A DNA stretch of 64,000 bases, taken from Chiridota heheva (lineage: Eukaryota; Echinodermata; Holothuroidea; Apodida; Chiridotidae). The position numbers and the translations under genes were made by a program. The notes beneath the pieces were generated by a model that saw only the letters and a list, made by a program, of their open reading frames with translations, was not told the DNA's origin and searched no databases. Location of the stretch: contig JAIGNY010002988.1 in NCBI GenBank assembly GCA_020152595.1, positions 191,001-255,000 of the forward strand, written 5' to 3'. This document shows, in pieces, positions 1,435 through 46,206 of this stretch (position 1 is its first letter; each line of letters begins with the position of its first letter).

Positions 1435-1656
1435 ATTTTCAAAATGGATTTCTATTGTCAAAATGGACTGGAATAAAGCTTTCACATTACTATTGTACTC
1501 CTTTTTTGGGGACTTAATCAACTCTGTACCAGAATAAAATGCAAAAATTATGTTAGCTTTTCTGGTACAGAGTTTATTAAGTACCAAAGACAGAGTATAA
1601 TGGCAATGTGAAGGTTTTATTCCAGTCCATTTTGACAACAAAAATCCATTTTGAAA
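1435..1656. mobile_element. Long hairpin (foldback/MITE-like), arms ~97 bp
   Basis: The left arm (1435-1533) reads through CAAAATGGA...GTCAAAATGGACTGGAATAAA to CTCTGTACCAG. The right arm (1561-1656) is its inverse, from CTGGTACAGAG to TCCATTTTGAAAA, with a few mismatches and small indels. The loop is about 27 bp. No coding potential. It looks like a small foldback element or MITE. Confidence 0.85.
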
Positions 1657-1664
1657 AAACAATC

Positions 1665-1765
1665 AGAAATTTTAGATCGGGAGTGAGTACAAATGTAGGT
1701 CATGATTCGGAATTTATATTCTGAATCATGACCTACATTTGTACTCACTCCGATCTAAAATTTCT
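1665..1765. repeat. Near-perfect palindrome, 44-bp arms
   Basis: The left arm 1665-1708 (AGAAATTTTAGATCGGGAGT...) and right arm 1723-1765 (...ACTCCGATCTAAAATTTCT) are reverse complements except for one extra G in the left arm. The 14-bp spacer is AT-rich. It lies 9 bp from the preceding hairpin. The near identity implies a young insertion or recent conversion of the arms. Confidence 0.95.
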
Positions 1766-2504
1766 TATTGTTTTAAATAATAATAAGTTCAGGAAACCAT
1801 GATCAAAATTCCCTTCCTGTTTAGCATTTATTTATTTATTTTTTGGTGTGTGTGTATGTGTGTGTGTGTAGGGGGGGCTACACTATAATGTCCCATTTGA
1901 GCTATGAAACTGCCGCACATCTAAAACATTATGATATTTTTTCTTCCAGGACAAGACAGGTGGCAATAAATTCAAAACGTTATTCATTCCATTGTACATA
2001 TTTGCTTCAAGTTTTAAAGTTGAAGTTCATAACATTTATAAGGCACATCATTTAACACCATACTGCATCTAAACAAACTGATTCTAATGCGCCAAACAAA
2101 GTTTGTTTTAAAGTCTTTGTGTCTGAATACAATGTCCAGATCTCAACAATTCTTCCCTTAAATGGAAACATAGCAAAAATGTCTTTTTAAAAGTGAAAAA
2201 TACAAATTATATAAAAAGTCAATTTCAAATTTAATGAATAATTTATTGACTTAAAGCAAGCATACTAGCATATAGCGCATTTCTTACTTAATTAGAAAAA
2301 CTAAAACTACCCAAAGTATTGGTTGTACCACACAAAGACTTGTGAAAACTGAAAATGACACATTCTAAAAATACCCAAATATATCACTTTTAAATATTGT
2401 ATTGCCACCTGTATGCAAACCAATTGTTTGCTCATGTCTTTCAGAGAAAAACAGTTGACAAATATTGACACCTGAAGCCAGAAGAGTATTGGCCTCTCTT
2501 CTAA
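1766..2504. other. AT-rich unique stretch, possible minus-strand 3' UTR
   Basis: There is a (GT)n-like tract at 1845-1870 and a G run at 1871-1877. No ORF stands out on either strand. Read on the minus strand, AATAAA hexamers occur at about 1826-1837 (tandem) and about 2245. That would suit polyadenylation of a transcript ending in the exon-like segment at 2505-2540, but this is inference. Confidence 0.3.
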
Positions 2505-2540
2505 TCAATCAATATAATCAATGTCATCGGGCAGCTCCAT
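2505..2540 (-). CDS. Possible last coding exon (acidic C terminus, MELPDDIDYID-stop)
   Basis: On the minus strand, the pyrimidine-rich acceptor TTTTTCCCCCTAG (AG at 2542-2541) is followed by twelve codons reading MELPDDIDYID then TGA. The short acidic tail looks like a natural protein C terminus. Polyadenylation-like hexamers lie downstream on the same strand. I do not recognise the protein. Upstream exons would lie at higher coordinates and I could not identify them. A chance match is quite possible because the piece is only 36 nt; the reading frame is not fixed by anything except plausibility. Confidence 0.3.
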   Translation of the reverse strand: MELPDDIDYID

Positions 2541-2570
2541 CTAGGGGGAAAAATGATACACATAAAACTA

Positions 2571-2680
2571 AAGGAATATTCTTGTGAATTTTCATTTACA
2601 TGATACAGGATTATTACAGATACAAAATGGAAAGTACTATGTTGATATACTCTGTTTAATACAAAGTATGTCATACTTGC
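2571..2680 (+). repeat. Diverged half-copy of the 38.7-kb foldback
   Basis: AAAGGAATATTCTTGTGAATTTTCATTT, then ACAGATACAAAATGGAAA and ACTATGTTGATAT, follow the order and spacing of the left arm of the foldback at 38702-39317, with many substitutions. No right arm is seen. Confidence 0.5.
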
Positions 2681-2989
2681 AGATTATAGACAATTTTGTT
2701 CTACATAAAAAATCATATATATAATTTATTTTGAATGCAATTAAAAGAATATGTCTGAGGAATACTTGTGATTTTTTGTATATATATATGATAACTCCAA
2801 CATGGAAAAAGATATCAGCAAGGTTTTTAAACTAATTTGTTCCTTTAATAGTCCGTTGTCATATCAGGGACCGCGGGGACGAAGAGGGAAGGGGAGAACA
2901 TTTTAGCTGTGCAATAATAAATACAACTATATAGGAATCGCAGAATTTCACCTTCACAGTTTTCCTAGTTGGGATGAGGTAAGATTGGG

Positions 2990-3865
2990 AAATTATTAAC
3001 AGAAAATTGAAACAAGTGGTAGGATTTGGTAAAATTTGTTTGAAATTTCAGTCAAATTTGTCAGAAGAATTCCCAAAATTTTCCCAAAATTCCTCAAATT
3101 AAAAGAAAATTGGCTAAAAATGGAGGAAATTTCCAGAAAATTGACAAAGGGTTTACCAAAATTTAAACATAAAATTGAAAGAAAATTTGGTCAAATTGTT
3201 TGAAATTTTTGGTCGAATTTGTCAAAACAATTCCCCAAATTGACAAACACTCTTCAAAATCAAAGAAATTTGCCAAAAAATGTAGGAAATTTCCTGAAAT
3301 TTGAAAACAAATTGCCAAAAATGAATTAAATTGACAGAAAATTGTGAAAAGTTTAGCAAAATTCAACATAAAAGTGAAATTAGCAAAATTGAAAGGAAAT
3401 TTGGTAGAATTGTTAAAAAAATTGTCAAATTTATCAACAAATTTCCGAAATTAACAAAAATTCTTCAAAATCAAAGAAAATTCCCTAAAAATGAACAAAA
3501 TGTCCCGAAGATCATAGAAACTTGCCAAAAATGTACAAAATTGACATTTCAACAGTTTTAACAGTTGAAGTTTAATTTGTCAACAAATTCTTGAATATTG
3601 AAGAAAATTGAAGAAAATTGCCTTTAATTTAAGGAAATTTCCTTAAAATTGCAGAAAATTGCCCCAAAATAAACAATATATTCTTAACATTGTCTAAAAT
3701 TTCACCAAATTTTTTAAAAAAGTTCCTAAAATGAACTAGATTTCGTAAAAATTGCACAAAAATGAAGGAATCCTCCTTAAAATTGCCCATGAAGGAAATT
3801 TTCCTTAAATTGTCAAACAATTCACCAACATTTGAAGGAAAGTGCCTGAAATTTAACGAAAATTG
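2990..3865. repeat. Degenerate AT-rich array of GAAAATTTCC(A)AAAATT-type units
   Basis: About 870 bp of loosely repeating 15-25-bp units built from GAAAATT, GGAAATTTCC, CCAAAATT and TTGACAAA. Recurrent related arrays occur at 7175-7300, 23880-24085, 38010-38270 and 50770-51060. Several are followed by a similar unique-looking tail (AATTTACC-TTGCAATTTTTC...). The ORFs inside (for example 3163-3369, 3331-3561 and 3629-3883) are low-complexity Phe/Lys/Asn strings on both strands and are not genes. Confidence 0.8.
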
Positions 3866-8345: not shown

Positions 8346-8355
8346 CCTATAAAGC

Positions 8356-9243
8356 ATGATGGTTGTATCTTATCATTTATATGCTGATGACTTTCAACTT
8401 TATATCAATTTTGACCCTCCTGGTAACTCTTCCATCCAGTCAGCACTCTCCACGCATACCATGTGCATTAGTAACATTCAGTACTGGATAAGGACCAACA
8501 TGTCGAAACTTAATAACAATAAGACTGGAGTTTTTGTTACCCTATCAAACCATAACAAGTGCTCCATGCCTCCTGTCAGCTTACAGATTGGTGAGGACAC
8601 CATAACACCTTCTGAGACTGTGCGGAACCTTGGAAATATTTTTGACAGTTCAGATGTTACTGTCAAACCAAGTTTCAACTCTTTTCTTTGTTTCATTTCA
8701 CCTCGCAACATTTCTCGTATCTGTCGCTATCTAGACTTTGCATGCTTGCAATAATGTTGTGCGCTCACTCATTCTGTCCAGACTGGATTATGGCAATGTC
8801 CTGCTTCTGGGTGCTAAGGCATCTGACATTGCAACATTTACAAACCTGAGCAGCCAAGCTTGTTTTCCACACAAACAAAGATGACCAATCCATCCCCATT
8901 GCTAAAACAATTACACTGGCTACCTGTCAAGGAAAGAATATTTTATATGGCTATGCTCTCTATGTTTACCAATCCTTTACAGGTTCATCTCTGCCTTATC
9001 ACTCTACTAACATAATACTGCATCACCCTAGGTGTGAAGGTCTTGTGTTCCGCATCAGACAGAATCCGTCTTAAAGAAAGAAGTATAAATAGATGGTCAC
9101 TTAAATCTGCCGCTGACAAAGATTTCTTTCATATTGCAACTAACCTCTGGAACCTGGATAATTTATCCATTAGCATTCGTACAGCCAACTCTTTACCGGT
9201 TTTCATTAAAACATTGAAATCCCATTTATTTCCTCAGTCATAA
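8356..9243 (+). pseudogene. Broken reverse transcriptase, C-terminal half, CR1/L2/Jockey-like LINE
   Basis: This is the catalytic and thumb part of a non-LTR retrotransposon reverse transcriptase. YHLYADDFQLYI holds the YADD catalytic motif (codons at 8380-8391), preceded only by satellite sequence, so the 5' part is missing. The frame runs to 8754, then shifts. SRLDYGN, a conserved motif C-terminal to the active site in this clade, lies in a second frame (8753-8868). After more breaks a third frame (9034-9243) carries NLWNLDNL..SIRTANSLPVF..LKSHLF, matching the usual C-terminal LWNSLP..IR...S...FK..LKTHLF pattern. At least three frame changes and internal stops make it dead. The tail to about 9360 holds GGCACGGTATAAAAGCC, like the 3' UTR of these elements. 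Clade assignment is by motif only. Confidence 0.85.
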
Positions 9244-11874: not shown

Positions 11875-12351
11875 CAGACCCCTAGCTTTGCTGTTTTACA
11901 GGGGAAGCCCGCCCTGCCCCTCTGTAGGCCTGCCCTGCCCCATGGGGTCCGCCCTGTCCCATGAGGGTCCGCCCTGCCCCTGGGGTCCGCCCTGCCCCTC
12001 ATGATATATATACATATATTTATTTTTTTCTTTTATAGTTTTTTTTAAAGAATTTTTTTTAACTTAATAATCTTATATAACCTCATACATAAAATACCTT
12101 ACATGGATACAGAACACAGAATGATAGCATAGTAAGCAATTGTCCTGTTTGGCTCAATGGTCCTTATCATTCAGAATAGTTTTATTCTGAGGTATGAATA
12201 TAGCTGAAATCCCAGAGCTTCTTCACCATGGGATTGAGCCTTAAGGGGGCCCTGGACTCCATGCCCAAAAGACGCAGCGCTTCACGCATGCATTAATGTG
12301 CCCCTCAAAAAGTCTAGCACTCTGCCCCTTTTAAATCAAGCTAGGGGTCTA
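11875..12351. mobile_element. 477-bp TIR element nested in foldback E
   Basis: The inverted ends AGACCCCTAGCTT (11876-11888) and AAGCTAGGGGTCT (12338-12350) match over 13 bp. TTTAT flanks on both sides (11870-11874 and 12352-12356), consistent with a 5-bp target duplication. The uninterrupted foldback copy at 19550-19562 shows the empty site. The interior holds CG-rich tandem units and a low-complexity AT stretch. No transposase is visible, so it is non-autonomous. Confidence 0.85.
11898..12003 (+). repeat. C-rich minisatellite (GTCCGCCCTGCCCC)
   Basis: About six imperfect units of GGGTCCGCCCTGCCCCTG or related sequence inside the nested element. It is locally very GC-rich compared with its AT-rich surroundings. 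Confidence 0.85.
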
Positions 12352-24085: not shown

Positions 24086-25480
24086 AGAAGTTGAATTTTT
24101 TTTTCTCGCTTTTTTTAGGGGAGGGGGCTATGATTTTTTAGGGGGAAAAGCCTGCCTCCCTCCCCCCCCCCCCTCCCATAGAACACGCCATGGCTTTCTT
24201 TATTACTATCCATACACAAAATTAAATGCCATGACAGCCCTTTTGTAAAGGGTGTTCTTGTAGATGAAGGGGTTGTTTGATCATGAACTGGCAGGAACAT
24301 AGGAACTTTAGGGTCAAAGGAAGAATCACTTCTCAGGGAGAAAAACCCCATAATGTCCCCAGTCCCAAGTGAGAAAATCTCTTTCAGAGAAACACAAATA
24401 AATTATGTTCTACTAATTTCCCCTCACCCGCGACTATAGGTGGGTGTAGGTGTATGCATGTGGGTGGGGCAATATAGTGTAGGTGTGTGCATGTGGGTGG
24501 GATAATATTCTTTCTTCCATAAAAGAACAATATAAAGAACTAAAATTCAGATCGACCACATTGGTATGCAATTGAGATTTCTGTGACTGCATACTTGACT
24601 CCCTTCATTCAAATTTCCCATCTCATAGTATCTGAGCTAGTTACATTGCTACAGCTTGCGCATCCCACCCCACCTACCAGCATCAAAAAAGTGAGGGGGT
24701 CCAAGAAGGTGCTAGACCCCCTCCCCTCCCATCACAAAGTGTTCAAATTTAGCACACTTCTGAGGGCAATTTCGTTTTTTAAAAGCAAAAATATATATAA
24801 AAAGCAAAGTTTATCCCAAATTCTAGACCCCCCCCCCCCCTCCCATGGCTATGCCACTGCCACCCACACACATACATTGGGATCGTAATTATCCTTCATA
24901 TAGTGGCGGCATGGAGCCATACTTTCTCCCATGGAGACAAGTGTTTTACACAACTTTATGTATTTTGTTTTTGTTTATATCGAAAAGTGAGGGCCAAGTA
25001 CACCCCGTTCTATCCCCCTTCCCCCTGGAATTCTGCTCTGATGCACATACCACACACACCAATGCAAGTGTTTCTGTCCATGAAATGCAGAGTACCATCT
25101 TATCTTCTGGACAAGTATAACCTTACTTTGACAGAACATAAGGTTGAAATCCTGATCAGTCAAATATCAATTATCCTGCTAATGGTCTTAAATCCAATCT
25201 AAATAAGGCTTTACAAAAGATACAATCATGATGATAGAGAGGCTAATCCATAAGTTGTGTGTCTTGATTCCTCTAGTATTGTTGCCATTGATTTTTCTAT
25301 TCCAGTTCCAATCTCTCATTTCAGGCAAAGGGGGAGGTATTAAATCTTCTGGAAATTGACAAGAGGTATTTAATTAGCTGATTAACTGAAATAGGAAAAA
25401 GGGTTTAAAAGGTACTTAAAGAGTTCTTATTGATTTCATGCTAGTGTATAGAAGCAATTGCCTTAGACTGATCAGTTAAA
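24086..25480. other. No supported gene; poly-C tracts and a 40-bp duplication
   Basis: GTGTAGGTGTATGCATGTGGGTGGG is repeated at about 24445 and 24478. C runs occur at about 24160-24175 and 24828-24840. Overlapping small ORFs in several frames resemble no family. Confidence 0.45.
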
Positions 25481-26570
25481 GACTATGTTACCAATATAGA
25501 CTATCTTACCAATATAGACTATGTTACCAATATAGACTATGTTACCAATATAGACTATGTTACCATTATGGACTATGTTACCATTATGGACTATGTTACC
25601 ATTATAGACTATGTTACCATTATAGACTATGTTACCATTATGGACTATGTTACCATTATGGACTATGTTACCATTATGGACTATGTTACCATTATGGACT
25701 ATGTTACCAATGTAGACTATGTTACCATTATAGACTATGTTACCATTATGGACTATGTTACCATTATGGACTATGTTACCATTATGGACTATGTTACCAT
25801 TATAGACTATGTTACCATTATAGACTATGTTACCATTATAGACTATGTTACCATTATGGACTATGTTACCATTATAGACTATGTTACCATGATAGACTAT
25901 GTTACCATTATAGACTATGTTACCGTCATAGACTATGTTACCATTATAGACTATGTTACCATTATAGACTATGTTACCATTATAGACTATGTTACCATTA
26001 TGGACTATGTTACCATTATAGACTATGTTACCATGATAGACTATGTTACCATGATAGACTATGTTACCATTATAGACTATGTTACCATTATAGACTATGT
26101 TACCATTATAGACTATGTTACCATTATAGACTATGTTACCATTATAGACTATGTTACCATTATAGACTATGTTACCATTATAGACTATGTTACCATTATG
26201 GACTATGTTACCATTATAGACTATGTTACCATGATAGACTATGTTACCATTATAGACTATGTTACCGTTATAGACTATGTTACCATTATAGACTATGTTA
26301 CCATTATAGACTATGTTACCATTATAGACTATGTTACCATTATGGACTATGTTACCATTATAAACTATGTTACCATGATAGACTCTGTTACCATTATAGA
26401 CTATGTTACCATTATAGACTATGTTACCATTATAGACTATGTTACCATTATAGACTATGTTACCATTATAGATTATGTTACCATTATAGACTATGTTACC
26501 ATGATAGACTATGTTACCATTATAGACTATGTTACCATTATAGACTATGTTACCATTATAGACTATGTTG
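25481..26570 (+). repeat. 18-bp minisatellite, upstream array, ~60 units
   Basis: The unit is GACTATGTTACCATTATA with ATGGAC, CATGATA and CCAATATA variants; the CCAATATA form is concentrated in the first five units. Because 18 is a multiple of 3 and the unit lacks stops, a 336-aa IDYVTI-repeat ORF (25568-26578) appears. It has no non-repeat domain and the same array is also open in other frames elsewhere, so I treat it as an artefact. Confidence 0.98.
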
Positions 26571-28890
26571 AAGATTAGCTTGGCGCTTGTTTATGAGCTG
26601 CCAGTGTTAAAATTTGTCTCGTAATTTCTTCAGATTTTTTTATCTTTTGCTGTTTTTTATCGTTTGTGAACGTGATTATTGTTTTATATGTGGATTACTA
26701 ACTTTAAATATGGTGCTTGTGAGTGAACTAAAAAACCTGGTTTGTTATATTTTTCATTTACTTTTGGTAGTGAAATTAGCGTCCTTAGCAACTACCCATC
26801 CTACCATGCTTTTTGGAGTCACCATGCCTAGCCTACACTCTAGCTCCTAATCTTTATACAATTTTCGGAGGAGGCAGGTTTTCACAATAGATTCACGATT
26901 GATGAACAAATTAAAAGACTTCATCATAGAGGCTCAAGAGCTGGATTACAACAACGCACTAGACATACACATCCGTCTAATTTCAGCTTTCCATATGGTT
27001 TGACAGCAAATGTAAATAGCCTCCAAGGAAAATTTATGCATTTAGATCAAAGAATTGCTAACTTGCGTAATCTATCATTTATAGCTCTACAAGAAACAAA
27101 ACTTTAAAATTTGGACCAACTTTTCCAGAATGAAATGCCACAACACAGAGTAGCAGATAATGCGCTGCTAATCGACGATTATTACATGTTTCGTCATGAC
27201 AGGCAATTTCTAGCAAATGGGGGAGGACTCATTACTTATATTTCAAAGAAATGGACAATATGTACCCCTAAAGTATGTCAATCAGTGTCAACAGAAGATA
27301 TTGAATTGCTTGCAATCCGGGCGCGCCCTCATTATCTACCAAGTGACACATCAAACATTACTACTGTAAATGTGTACACCAGACCATCATCAAACTTTAC
27401 AACAGCTGATAATGAATTGAAAGCGCTTCTTACTTATCTACAAAGAGAAAATCCCAGGACCTATTTCATTATTGTTGGTGACATAAACAGGCAAAGAATC
27501 AGATTCCTTGAAACAATGTCCTTCAAAAATGAAGCAGATTTTGTCACTTTCCCCAATGCAAATTCAACTCTGGATGCTGTATATGTCAAAGGTGATTATT
27601 ACGTAACAAGGGAATCAGCCCCTATCTCCACGCCTGATCATAACAGTATATTACTAATGCCAAAATACAACGAAAAGCACCGTAAATTTGAACCTAGGAA
27701 AAGGAAAACAGAAAAAGATTTAACAGACCAAAATATAATGAAAATGCAGGAATGTCTTAAGACCACCGACTGGAATTTGTTCAAAGAATCATGACAGTCT
27801 TGATAAGTTTACAGAAATTACTTCATGCTACATCGACTTTGTTTATAAACAGTGTATACCACTCAAAAAGTCAGCACCCGTGAAAATGACAAAATCCACT
27901 GGATAGCAGAATTACCCAACTGGAAAAAGACAAACAAAAGGCGATAGAGGAAGGGAAGAAAGGCTTGAGAAACAAGATTCAGAGGACAATAAATAAATGT
28001 GTATGAGATGTGGGGAGTGAAACCTTAGGTCACATGAAGGCTAATTCAAAATCTTTTTGGAGCTTAATTAAATCTGTTAGAAACCCAGATGAAAACAATA
28101 AAGTTTGTATTGCTGAAATTATTGGGGATGAACTGAACACACATTTTGGTCGTTTGAATCAATCCTGTAACAAAGACATTAACTTTTCCTCGCCAGAATA
28201 CACGGGAGATGCATGCATTACTGAGTTAAATGTAGAATCTGTATGTAATCAATTCAAAAGGTTTAAAAGGGTGTTGCCTGCGGATCTGATAAACTTCCTT
28301 AGTGGGTCTTTAAGTTTCTAAGTAACGATTTAGCCCCTTTATACACATGCATTTTTGAGGAAACTATTTTTCCAACAGTAAAATACCATTGCTAAGGAAA
28401 AAGCCATAACAGCCCCTATTCCCAAAATTAAGACACCTCAAACTGCAAATGATTATAGGCTGATAGATTTAGCAAGTAATGCTTTTAACAGCCTTCAGAA
28501 AATTATATTGCCCCGTTTGATGGAGAGAGTTGAAGAAGTAGGTGATGCATATCAGTTTGCCTATAAAAAGGGTGTTTCATGTGTAGATGCTATACTAATT
28601 CTGGTTAACGATATTGTTACTCGTTTGAATTGCAAGGAAACCACTATATCAAAGGTTCTTTTCCTTGATTTCTCAAGTGCGTTTAACACGGTGTTGATTT
28701 CTAACTAAATTTGTAAAAGATCCGTGGCTTATCCATCTTAATTTCTTGAATTACCATGATAGACTATGTTGCCAATAAAACTATGTTACTCATTATAGAC
28801 TTAACTAAATTTGTAAAGACTAGATATAGACTATGTTACCATTGGCTTATCCATCTGATAGCCCAATTTCTTACAGACTATGTTACCATG
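26571..28890 (+). mobile_element. LINE (CR1/L2/Rex-like) embedded between two 18-bp arrays
   Basis: A non-LTR retrotransposon with an endonuclease, linker and the N-terminal half of its reverse transcriptase in the right order, bounded on both sides by the 18-bp minisatellite. It has a non-coding leader of about 290 bp. The 3' half (YADD region, thumb, 3' UTR) is missing. This is unlike normal LINE insertion, which loses the 5' end. The last ~200 bp interleave LINE pieces with minisatellite units. Confidence 0.85.
26880..27794 (+). pseudogene. LINE apurinic-type endonuclease domain, interrupted
   Basis: The endonuclease nicks target DNA for target-primed reverse transcription. A frame open from about 26880 reads RLHHRGSRAG, SFPYGLTANVNSLQGK and FIALQETKL. 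RG.R.G followed by NV.SL and QET(W/K)L is the normal start of such ORFs, with the catalytic Glu in QET. A TAA at 27105-27107 stops the frame. The same frame resumes with GGGLITYISK, then VGDINRQ (the GD.N motif), STLDAVYVK and STPDHNSILL (the (S/T)xDH motif). It ends in DWNLFKES at 27794. After a +1 shift the linker continues as DSLDKFTEITSCYIDFVYKQ. One nonsense codon and one frameshift make it non-functional as it stands. Confidence 0.85.
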
Positions 28891-28900
28891 TTACCATTAC
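28010..28900 (+). pseudogene. LINE reverse transcriptase, N-terminal half, truncated in minisatellite
   Basis: The first frame (28010-28321) has SFWSLIKSVRNPD and GDELNTHFGRL, the connector normally found before the catalytic core. A break at about 28321-28400 is followed by ITAPIPKIKTPQTANDYRLI (RT motif 1-2), QFAYKKGVSCVDAIL and KVLFLDFSSAFNTV, which contains the first catalytic Asp (motif A). A shift at about 28704 brings TKFVKDPWLIHLNFL. The frame then falls into the 18-bp array. A second, minisatellite-interrupted copy of the same segment (TKFVK...HWLIHLIAQFLTD) follows at 28801-28880. The YADD region is absent. Confidence 0.85.
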
Positions 28901-30915
28901 AGACTATGTTACCATTACAGACTATGTTACCATTATAGACTATGTTACCATTATGGACTATGTTACCATTATGGACTATGTTACCATTATGGACTATGTT
29001 ACCATTATGGACTATGTTACCATTATGGACTATGTTACCATTATGGACTATGTTACCATTATGGACTATGTTACCATTATGGACTATGTTACCATTATGG
29101 ACATTATGGACTATGTTACCATTATGGACTATGTTACCATTATGGACTATGTTACCATGATAGACTATGTTACCATGATAGACTATGTTACCATGATAGA
29201 CTATGTTACCATGATAGACTATGTTACCATGATAGACTAGACATGATAGACTATGTTACCATGATAGACTATGTTACCATTATAGACTATGTTACCATTA
29301 TAGACTATGTTACCATTATAGACTATGTTACCATTATAGACTATGTTACCATTATAGACTATGTTACCATGATAGACTATGTTACCATGATAGACTATGT
29401 TACCATAGATAGACTATGTTACCATGATAGACTATGTTACCATGATAGACTATGTTACCATTAGACTATGTTACCATTACAGACTATGTTACCATTACAG
29501 ACTATGTTACCATTATAGACTATGTTACCATGATAGACTATGTTACCATTATAGACTATGTTACCATTATAGACTATGTTACCATTATAGACTATGTTAC
29601 CATTAAAGACTATGTTACCATTATAGACTATGTTACCATTACAGACTATGTTACCATTACAGACTATGTTACCATTACAGACTATGTTACCATTACAGAC
29701 TATGTTACCATTACAGACTATGTTACCATTAAAGACTATGTTACCAGACTATGTTTATAGACTATGTTACCATTATAGACTATGTTACCATTATAGACTA
29801 TGTTACCATTATAGACTATGTTACCATTATAGACTATGTTACCATTATAGACTATGTTACCATTACAGACTATGTTACCATTATAGACTATGTTACCATT
29901 ATAGACTATGTTACCATTATAGACTATGTTACCATTATAGACTATGTTACCATTATAGACTATGTTACCATTATAGACTATGTTACCATTATAGACTATG
30001 TTACCATTATAGACTATGTTACCATTATTACCATGATAGACTATGTTACCATTATAGACTATGTTACCATGATAGACTATGTTACCATTATAGACTATGT
30101 TACCATTACAGACTATGTTACCATTATAGACTATGTTACCATTATAGACTATGTTACCATTATAGACTATGTTACCATTATAGACTATGTTACCATTATA
30201 GACTATGTTACCATTACAGACTATGTTACCATTACAGACTATGTTACCATTACAGACTATGTTACCATTATAGACTATGTTACCATTATAGACTATGTTA
30301 CCATTATAGACTATGTTACCATTATAGACTATGTTACCATTATAGACTATGTTACCATTATAGACTATGTTACCATTATAGACTATGTTACCATTACAGA
30401 CTATGTTACCATTACAGACTATGTTACCATTACAGACTATGTTACCATTACAGACTATGTTACCATTACAGACTATGTTACCATTATAGACTATGTTACC
30501 ATTATAGACTATGTTACCATTATAGACTATGTTACCATTATAGACTATGTTACCATTATAGACTATGTTACCATTATAGACTATGTTACCATTATAGACT
30601 ATGTTACCATTATAGACTATGTTACCATTATAGACTATGTTACCATTATAGACTATGTTACCATTATAGACTATGTTACCATTATAGACTATGTTACCAT
30701 TATAGACTATGTTACCATTATAGGCTATGTTTATAGACTATGTTACCATTATAGACTATGTTACCATTATAGACTATGTTACCATTATAGACTATGTTAC
30801 CATTATAGACTATGTTACCATTATAGACTATGTTACCATTATAGACTATGTTACCATTATAGACTATGTTACCATTATAGACTATGTTACCATTATAGAC
30901 TATGTTACCATTATA
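28746..30915 (+). repeat. 18-bp minisatellite, downstream array, ~110 units
   Basis: Same unit as the upstream array, continuous from about 28871. Blocks of like variants occur: CATTATGGAC (28935-29150), CATGATAGAC (29155-29450) and CATTACAGAC or CATTATAGAC (29460 on). Irregular joints are seen at 29098-29106, 29236-29245, 29746-29760, 30027-30036 and 30722-30734. Long ORFs in all three forward frames (28833-30947) are repeat translations. Confidence 0.98.
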
Positions 30916-45424: not shown

Positions 45425-45476
45425 CATCCCTCTGAAAAAGCCTACGGACTTGAATTGTAACTCCGTATTTGGGAGA

Positions 45477-46203
45477 TTTGGCATACAAATAAAATAACAT
45501 ACGACCAGAAGACTAGAGATTTGGCATACAAATAATATAACATATGACCAGAAGACAAAAGATTTGGCGTACAAAATAAAATAGCATACAACCAGAAAAC
45601 AGATTTGGCATAAAAATAAAATAACATACAACCCGAAGACAGAGATTTGGCATGAAAATAAAATAACATACGACCAGAAGACAAGAGATTTGGCATAAAA
45701 ATAAAATAACATACGACCAGAAGACAAGAGATTTGGCATACAAATAAAATAACATACGACCAGAAGGCAGAGATTTGGCATACAAATAAAATAACAAACG
45801 ACCAGAAGACAAGAGATTTGGCATACAAATAAAATAACAAACGACCAGAAGACAAGAGATTTGGCATACAAATAAAATAACAAACGACCAGAAGACAAGA
45901 GATTTGGCATACAAATAAAATAACATACGACCAGAAGACAAGAGATTTGGCATACAAATAAAATAACATACGACCAGAAGACAAGAGATTTGGCATACAA
46001 ATAAAATAACATACGACCAGAAGACAAGAGATTTGGCATACAAATAAAATAACATACGACCAGAAGGCAGAGATTTGGCATACAAATAAAATAACATACG
46101 ACCAGAAGACAAGAGATTTGGCATACAAATGAAATAACATACGACCAGAAGACAAGAGATTTGGCATACAAATGAAATAACATACGACCAGAAGACAGAG
46201 GAT
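45477..46203 (+). repeat. 43-bp minisatellite, ~17 units
   Basis: The unit is AGAGATTTGGCATACAAATAAAATAACATACGACCAGAAGACA, with a shortened GAAGGC or GAAGACAG form at intervals. Read on the minus strand it is open in two frames (45260-46384 and 45442-46428), giving repeated FWSYVILFVCQISCL-like peptides. Both frames are equally open, so a protein is not supported. Confidence 0.97.
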
Positions 46204-46206
46204 TTT

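Follow-up and report, generated by a model that had tools for sequence, protein, structure and literature searches.

The stretch of Chiridota heheva DNA considered here, 64,000 nucleotides (nt) long and hereafter called the window, contains a long interspersed nuclear element (LINE) that lies inside a minisatellite of 18-bp units. One unit, in one orientation, stands on both sides of the LINE, whose 5' end is intact and whose 3' end is missing; as assembled, the 3' edge is a patchwork of LINE and array pieces, and sister copies of the element lie within other arrays of the same genome. In our judgement the likely history is that a 5'-complete LINE entered an existing 18-bp array and that its 3' end was lost later, through breakage and repair of the array. 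The order of events, the target priming and the repair pathway we infer as follows. A LINE of a common family would have been inserted by target-primed reverse transcription into the pre-existing minisatellite, splitting the array. Later breakage and repair in the unstable array would have removed the last ~1.14 kb of the LINE and joined the remaining segment of its reverse transcriptase (RT) region to the downstream array, end-joining or template switching leaving short duplicated and intermixed pieces of both, and the 3' array would afterwards have changed and expanded locally. The parts of the locus, in positions of the window and with tandem repeats called by Tandem Repeats Finder (TRF), are these:

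25481 to 26569, + strand: 5' array, 60 units, each of exactly 18 bp, and a half unit, GACTATGTT (TRF, unit parse).
26570 to 26577, + strand: filler of ~8 nt, GAAGATTA, between the array and the LINE 5' end (15 near-full sister 5' ends compared by eye).
26578 to 28750, + strand: LINE copy, first pass of the family sequence, 5'-complete and decayed (genome search, 15-sequence alignment, FastTree).
26844 to 27791, + strand: apurinic/apyrimidinic (AP) endonuclease region with one internal stop (PF03372 E 1.6e-5, PF14529 E 1.2e-5).
28382 to 28705, + strand: N-terminal portion of the RT, as far as motif A, FLDFSSAFNTV (RVT_1 E 6.6e-9, matching profile positions 2-82 out of 205).
28697 to 28702, + strand: scar, in which 22 nt of the family sequence are replaced by ATTTC (sister copies, parse, reading by eye).
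28751 to 28873, + strand: patchwork edge, an array piece and then a second LINE pass with array-like insertions (alignment, exact-match parse).
28874 to 30915, + strand: 3' array, 112 anchored units, of which 103 measure exactly 18 bp and 9 have an odd length (TRF, unit parse).

The array-LINE-array order with a common 18-bp unit had been described in an initial annotation made from the sequence alone, and it is confirmed by unit matches, by TRF and by the unit parse. The commonest unit of the 5' array is GACTATGTTACCATTATA, variants being present as well, and the 3' array is identical to it in unit type and orientation. TRF reports a period of 18 on both sides, at 25476-26569 (60.8 copies, 95% matches) and at 28888-30915 (114.8 copies, 94% matches), and these head-to-tail units fall within the ~10-100 bp by which minisatellites are recognised. 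When as many as 3 mismatches are allowed, a single rotation of the unit gives 172 matches confined to 25478-26557 and 28759-30912, against a mean of 0.16 in the shuffled window, so that chance is excluded for the 18-bp array. In the assembly holding the window (1.1 Gb, 3,744 contigs) an exact array 30-mer has at least 89 matches, all within this block, and at this stringency the array looks private to the locus, k-mer counts in the assembly being possibly lower bounds. Higher-order structure in the 5' array is limited to a weak peak at 342 bp (0.960 against a median of 0.948).

The unit variants connect the two arrays. Among the multi-copy variants compared (3 types in the 5' array and 4 in the 3' array) two, ..ATTATG and ..ATGATA, are shared (hypergeometric P 0.012), as is expected if one already diverse array was split. 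The variant ATTACA, with 18 exact-length units, is confined to the 3' side of the LINE, and AATATA to units at the start of the 5' array. None of the 60 full units of the 5' array is of odd length, against 9 of the 112 units of the 3' array, and the latter also has long runs of one unit variant; the unequal counts and these runs imply that the array halves changed differently after the split.

The LINE itself begins where its relatives begin: 15 near-full sister copies start at about one base, the one at which the window copy starts, and this copy is therefore 5'-complete. The filler GAAGATTA in front of it belongs neither to the array nor to what the sister copies have in common, and the exact edge is placed to within 1-4 nt. 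Both domains of an endonuclease-RT LINE, an AP-endonuclease and a reverse transcriptase, are found. PF03372 scores above its cut-off with two open frames joined by X at the stop, and PF14529, at a slightly lower E-value, stays below its own cut-off. The initial annotation had stated that the LINE keeps its endonuclease and the first part of the RT and stops after motif A. PF03372 and RVT_1 bear out the first statement; the stop has to be moved, as the element extends ~50 nt past motif A, to the equivalent of FLE(G), in a segment that recurs up to 28873. What is missing amounts to ~1,140 nt at the 3' end, the last third, and includes the YADD half of the RT, as had been noted: when these ~1,140 nt are taken from the sister copy L013 and compared with the window by BLAST, the one match is 28 nt long, at 12015 (E 0.005), and no RT text is seen downstream of 30915 on the + strand as far as 33200. 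The terminal branch of the window LINE is ~0.04 substitutions per site in a FastTree tree of 15 near-full sequences that include it.

The family to which this copy belongs was collected by a DNA search of the own genome with the window LINE, in which 40 of 271 candidates were scored. The resulting set of 40 places (49 matching pieces overall) consists of the window LINE, 29 copies taken as loci and 10 known by their fetched flanks, so that counts out of 39 refer to the other places. Near-full copies are 90-94% identical and radiate almost star-like in the tree. The family is ~3.3 kb long and ends in a short repeat tail of TTGAA or TTGAAA. Copies are dispersed and variably truncated at the 5' end, the first match starting at query positions 7-1339 in the 39 other places. 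The 3' tail is present in 34 of these 39 by BLAST, and in 35 when L070 is added by eye. In sister copies the RT continues through GVPQGG and then TATGCTGATGAT (in L039), read as YADD. AACTC stands at both edges of L014 and may be a target-site duplication; among copies compared by eye (10 5' flanks, and 3' ends in 9 of 12) no clear duplication was seen. The family would resemble CR1/L2/Rex1-type LINEs in its endonuclease and RT domains, short tandem 3' tail, 5'-truncated copies and length; the only comparison made for the clade is 37% identity to one LINE fragment. A side observation concerns C1822 (L057/L058), where a short (TA)n in the 3' untranslated part of the LINE reads at least 78 copies of AT, so that the LINE brings along a starting point of its own from which a microsatellite can grow.

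Five of the 39 other copies are flanked on both sides by one tandem repeat:

L014: 76-bp array on both sides; 5'-complete, 3' tail kept, AACTC at both edges.
L027: 24/48-bp satellite on both sides; 3' tail kept.
C1530 (L065/L066): 50-bp array on both sides; 3' tail kept.
L033: (TA)n directly abutting on both sides; LINE part 1501-3036, cut at both ends.
L028, a weaker case: repeat of a 24-bp type on both sides by eye, for which TRF gives no more than 3.2 copies (period 12 bp) to the left of the LINE and 2.2 copies (period 24 bp) to its right.

Four of the five keep the 3' tail. Read by eye, the units around them differ from the 18-mer, so those arrays were not made of one LINE-derived unit, and in this LINE family a copy that lands in an existing array yields the array-LINE-array order. 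Of the two histories offered by the initial annotation, the one in which the LINE jumped into an existing array and recombination or array change then removed its 3' part gains support from these five copies, four of them tailed, and from the shared unit variants. The other, an origin of the array at this very site with later spread to either side, need not be invoked, and its sole candidate for a founder is a doubtful 19-mer discussed below. L027 and L028 appear by eye to lie in one 24-bp satellite type (~TGGGATGCCATGTGGGACATGGGG), in opposite orientation relative to the LINE. The embedded count leaves out C3717 (L063/L064), which has GA-rich repeats on both sides with units that differ, C1750b (an 18-bp array on the left only), C1987 (a 22-bp array near the expected right end), and C1822, L025 and L037, with repeats near one edge.

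The proportion of embedded copies has to be read against the share of points inside arrays, which is 7.6% in the rest of the window and 6.0% in distal flanks without L014 and L027; a background of 12.0% is too high because these two embedded copies inflate it. For 4, 5 and 6 embedded copies out of 40, binomial P values are 0.37, 0.19 and 0.08 against the former background and 0.21, 0.09 and 0.03 against the latter, where the count of 4 omits L028 and L033, and where the window copy, chosen for its array, inflates the embedded count by one. These figures do not show that the family prefers arrays.

The 3' edge is where the locus departs from a simple insertion. The second LINE pass is composed of 28767-28817 and 28844-28873 with an array piece (28828-28843) between them, so that a LINE segment of ~85 nt after motif A is present twice, interrupted by array pieces. 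When 28757-28822 is aligned with an intact copy the score is 53, which is reached by none of 300 shuffles. The first pass, ending at 28750, has lost 22 nt, with ATTTC instead, and a further ~7 nt, and the second pass retains those bases. At the scar the 9-mer TTGATTTCT (28694-28702) copies, as read by eye, 28665-28673 just upstream, and it is possibly a templated insertion. Templated bits and short overlaps are marks of polymerase theta end-joining or of replication-based template switching, and one of these processes acting in the array would have made the patchwork.

It could also be argued that errors of assembly or consensus, such as the merging of two alleles, produced the patchwork, the missing 3' part and the odd-length units of the 3' array; this explanation shares with ours the insertion beside or into the array, and we consider it rather unlikely. 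The two LINE passes carry partly complementary damage, the changes of the second pass resemble array units, odd-length units are confined to the 3' array, and L033, within (TA)n, is likewise hard to assemble. Nevertheless, the 5' array is perfectly regular in 60 of 60 full units, the 3' tail is detected by BLAST in the great majority of sister copies (34/39), and a second copy of the 5' flank is absent from the assembly.

Alternatively, the LINE RNA or cDNA could itself have ended within the RT, the 3' truncation then taking place at integration, for example by pairing of an internal RNA site with the array. The absence of a tail from the window LINE, and an overlap of 3 nt (TTA) visible by eye at the edge (28871-28873), would fit this possibility, which we nonetheless hold to be very improbable: 35 of 39 sister copies have the tail, and a duplicated and interleaved edge is unexpected from simple internal priming.

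A different kind of explanation is that the 18-bp minisatellite was born from the LINE, by slippage in the RT region or in its 3' part, and spread upstream afterwards. In the window the reading frame leads out of the RT and into the array as FLTD-YVTI, similar to a LINE motif, FL..R.QYV, and an origin of the 18-mer in the RT motif after motif A was suggested by this frame; it is refuted by the intact copies, which read AATTTCTTGAAGGGTGGACCCGAC (FLEGWTRQIR) there, without the unit. The initial annotation had proposed looking in full-length copies for units at the same internal point; intact copies are found, and at the junction point they read AATTTCTTGAAGGGTGGACC and not the 18-bp unit. Birth from the segment directly after motif A was also considered and rejected, as the outer-left units of the 5' array fit that segment like shuffles do (241 to 295 of 300 as good), that is, at chance level.

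The only founder candidate inside the LINE would be the 19-mer TGGACTATTTTACCCTTAT, which differs from a unit variant at 2 of 19 positions. It is present on the same strand, ~674 nt downstream of the loss point, in 9 of the 12 copies that were scored. Without gaps its score is equalled in 12 of 1000 cases when the 3' part is shuffled and in 9 of 400 when the whole LINE is; none of 50 pieces of the window and none of 29 upstream flanks reaches it. Several unit variants and both strands were scanned after the data had been seen. An initial scoring with gaps let through too much, 62 of 300 shuffles and 10 of 49 pieces of the window doing equally well, and with gaps 26 to 87 of 300 shuffles equal the score of the unit consensus. 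A match with 3 mismatches is equalled by 1 of 10 unit shuffles. The significance of this candidate founder is doubtful. Moreover, the loss does not end at the 19-mer, and if the array was born from the LINE, a further event is required to explain why an array also precedes the intact 5' end. Taken as a whole, such an origin seems to us decidedly unlikely.

Insertion into an existing array, followed by loss of the 3' end, is thus retained, and several points weigh against it. Errors in the consensus could account for the patchwork and for the nine units of odd length. The 19-mer TGGACTATTTTACCCTTAT of intact copies, with its 2 mismatches in 19, leaves some room for an origin in the LINE. With its 3' junction gone, the window LINE shows no readable target-site duplication. 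A search of the assembly with 601 bp of the 5' flank returned the flank itself and three short matches of 72-78%, and thereby neither an empty-site allele nor a second haplotype. Lastly, the tail is missing in 2 of 6 array-embedded copies and in 1 of 32 others (Fisher 0.059), or in 3 of 34 others if L052 and L054, whose fetched stretch may have missed the 3' tail, are counted as tail-less (Fisher 0.154). Related to this, L026 ends early, with 782 of the 1,140 nt of the 3' part. Any association between arrays and 3' loss is weak, suggestive at most.

Non-LTR (long terminal repeat) retroelements inside satellite blocks have been described, for instance in Drosophila centromeres, according to work cited in PMC9659126. 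The present locus is similar in having a LINE-type element inside a tandem array that the element did not make; on the other hand, its array is a short single-locus 18-bp minisatellite, the copy is cut at the 3' end and the edge is scrambled. For tandem repeats derived from transposons, slippage, recombination and microhomology repair are discussed as causes in PMC9659126 and PMC3389668. The likeness to the cases treated there is that a LINE is physically joined to a tandem repeat, but no 18-bp founder has been established in intact LINE copies and the derivation is unsupported in our case.

Two further features of the window are of a different nature. A remnant of a second, different LINE lies at 8353-8751; it holds the YADD half of an RT, for which RVT_1 gives E 0.013, short of its cut-off. 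At 45473-46205 a 43-bp array of ~17 units carries overlapping minus-strand open frames of 203, 328 and 374 codons, which probably represent no gene. Searches beyond the own genome found no relatives in the collections viral_contigs, genome_contigs, phages and plasmids, no match below E 0.69 among PDB sequences, and no match of the motif strings in the literature.

The proposed explanation is an ordinary one, and the unusual part is the patchwork edge, which may record how the array was repaired. Where ~6-8% of sampled points lie within arrays, an array-LINE-array order needs no special mechanism, and sister copies provide a simple control for claims of this kind. The scrambled edge, together with L033, which stops just before motif A with (TA)n abutting there, makes a small testable case for array breakage re-joined with templated patches, the inserted LINE being a marker of unique sequence that exposes such events. 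Beyond this, arrays might wear away resident LINEs, starting at the 3' end, through repeated rounds of repair by microhomology or template switching, the window copy and L033 being two such records; we advance this as a speculation with the odds well against it. If it were true, array-embedded LINE copies would keep a readable record of array breakage.

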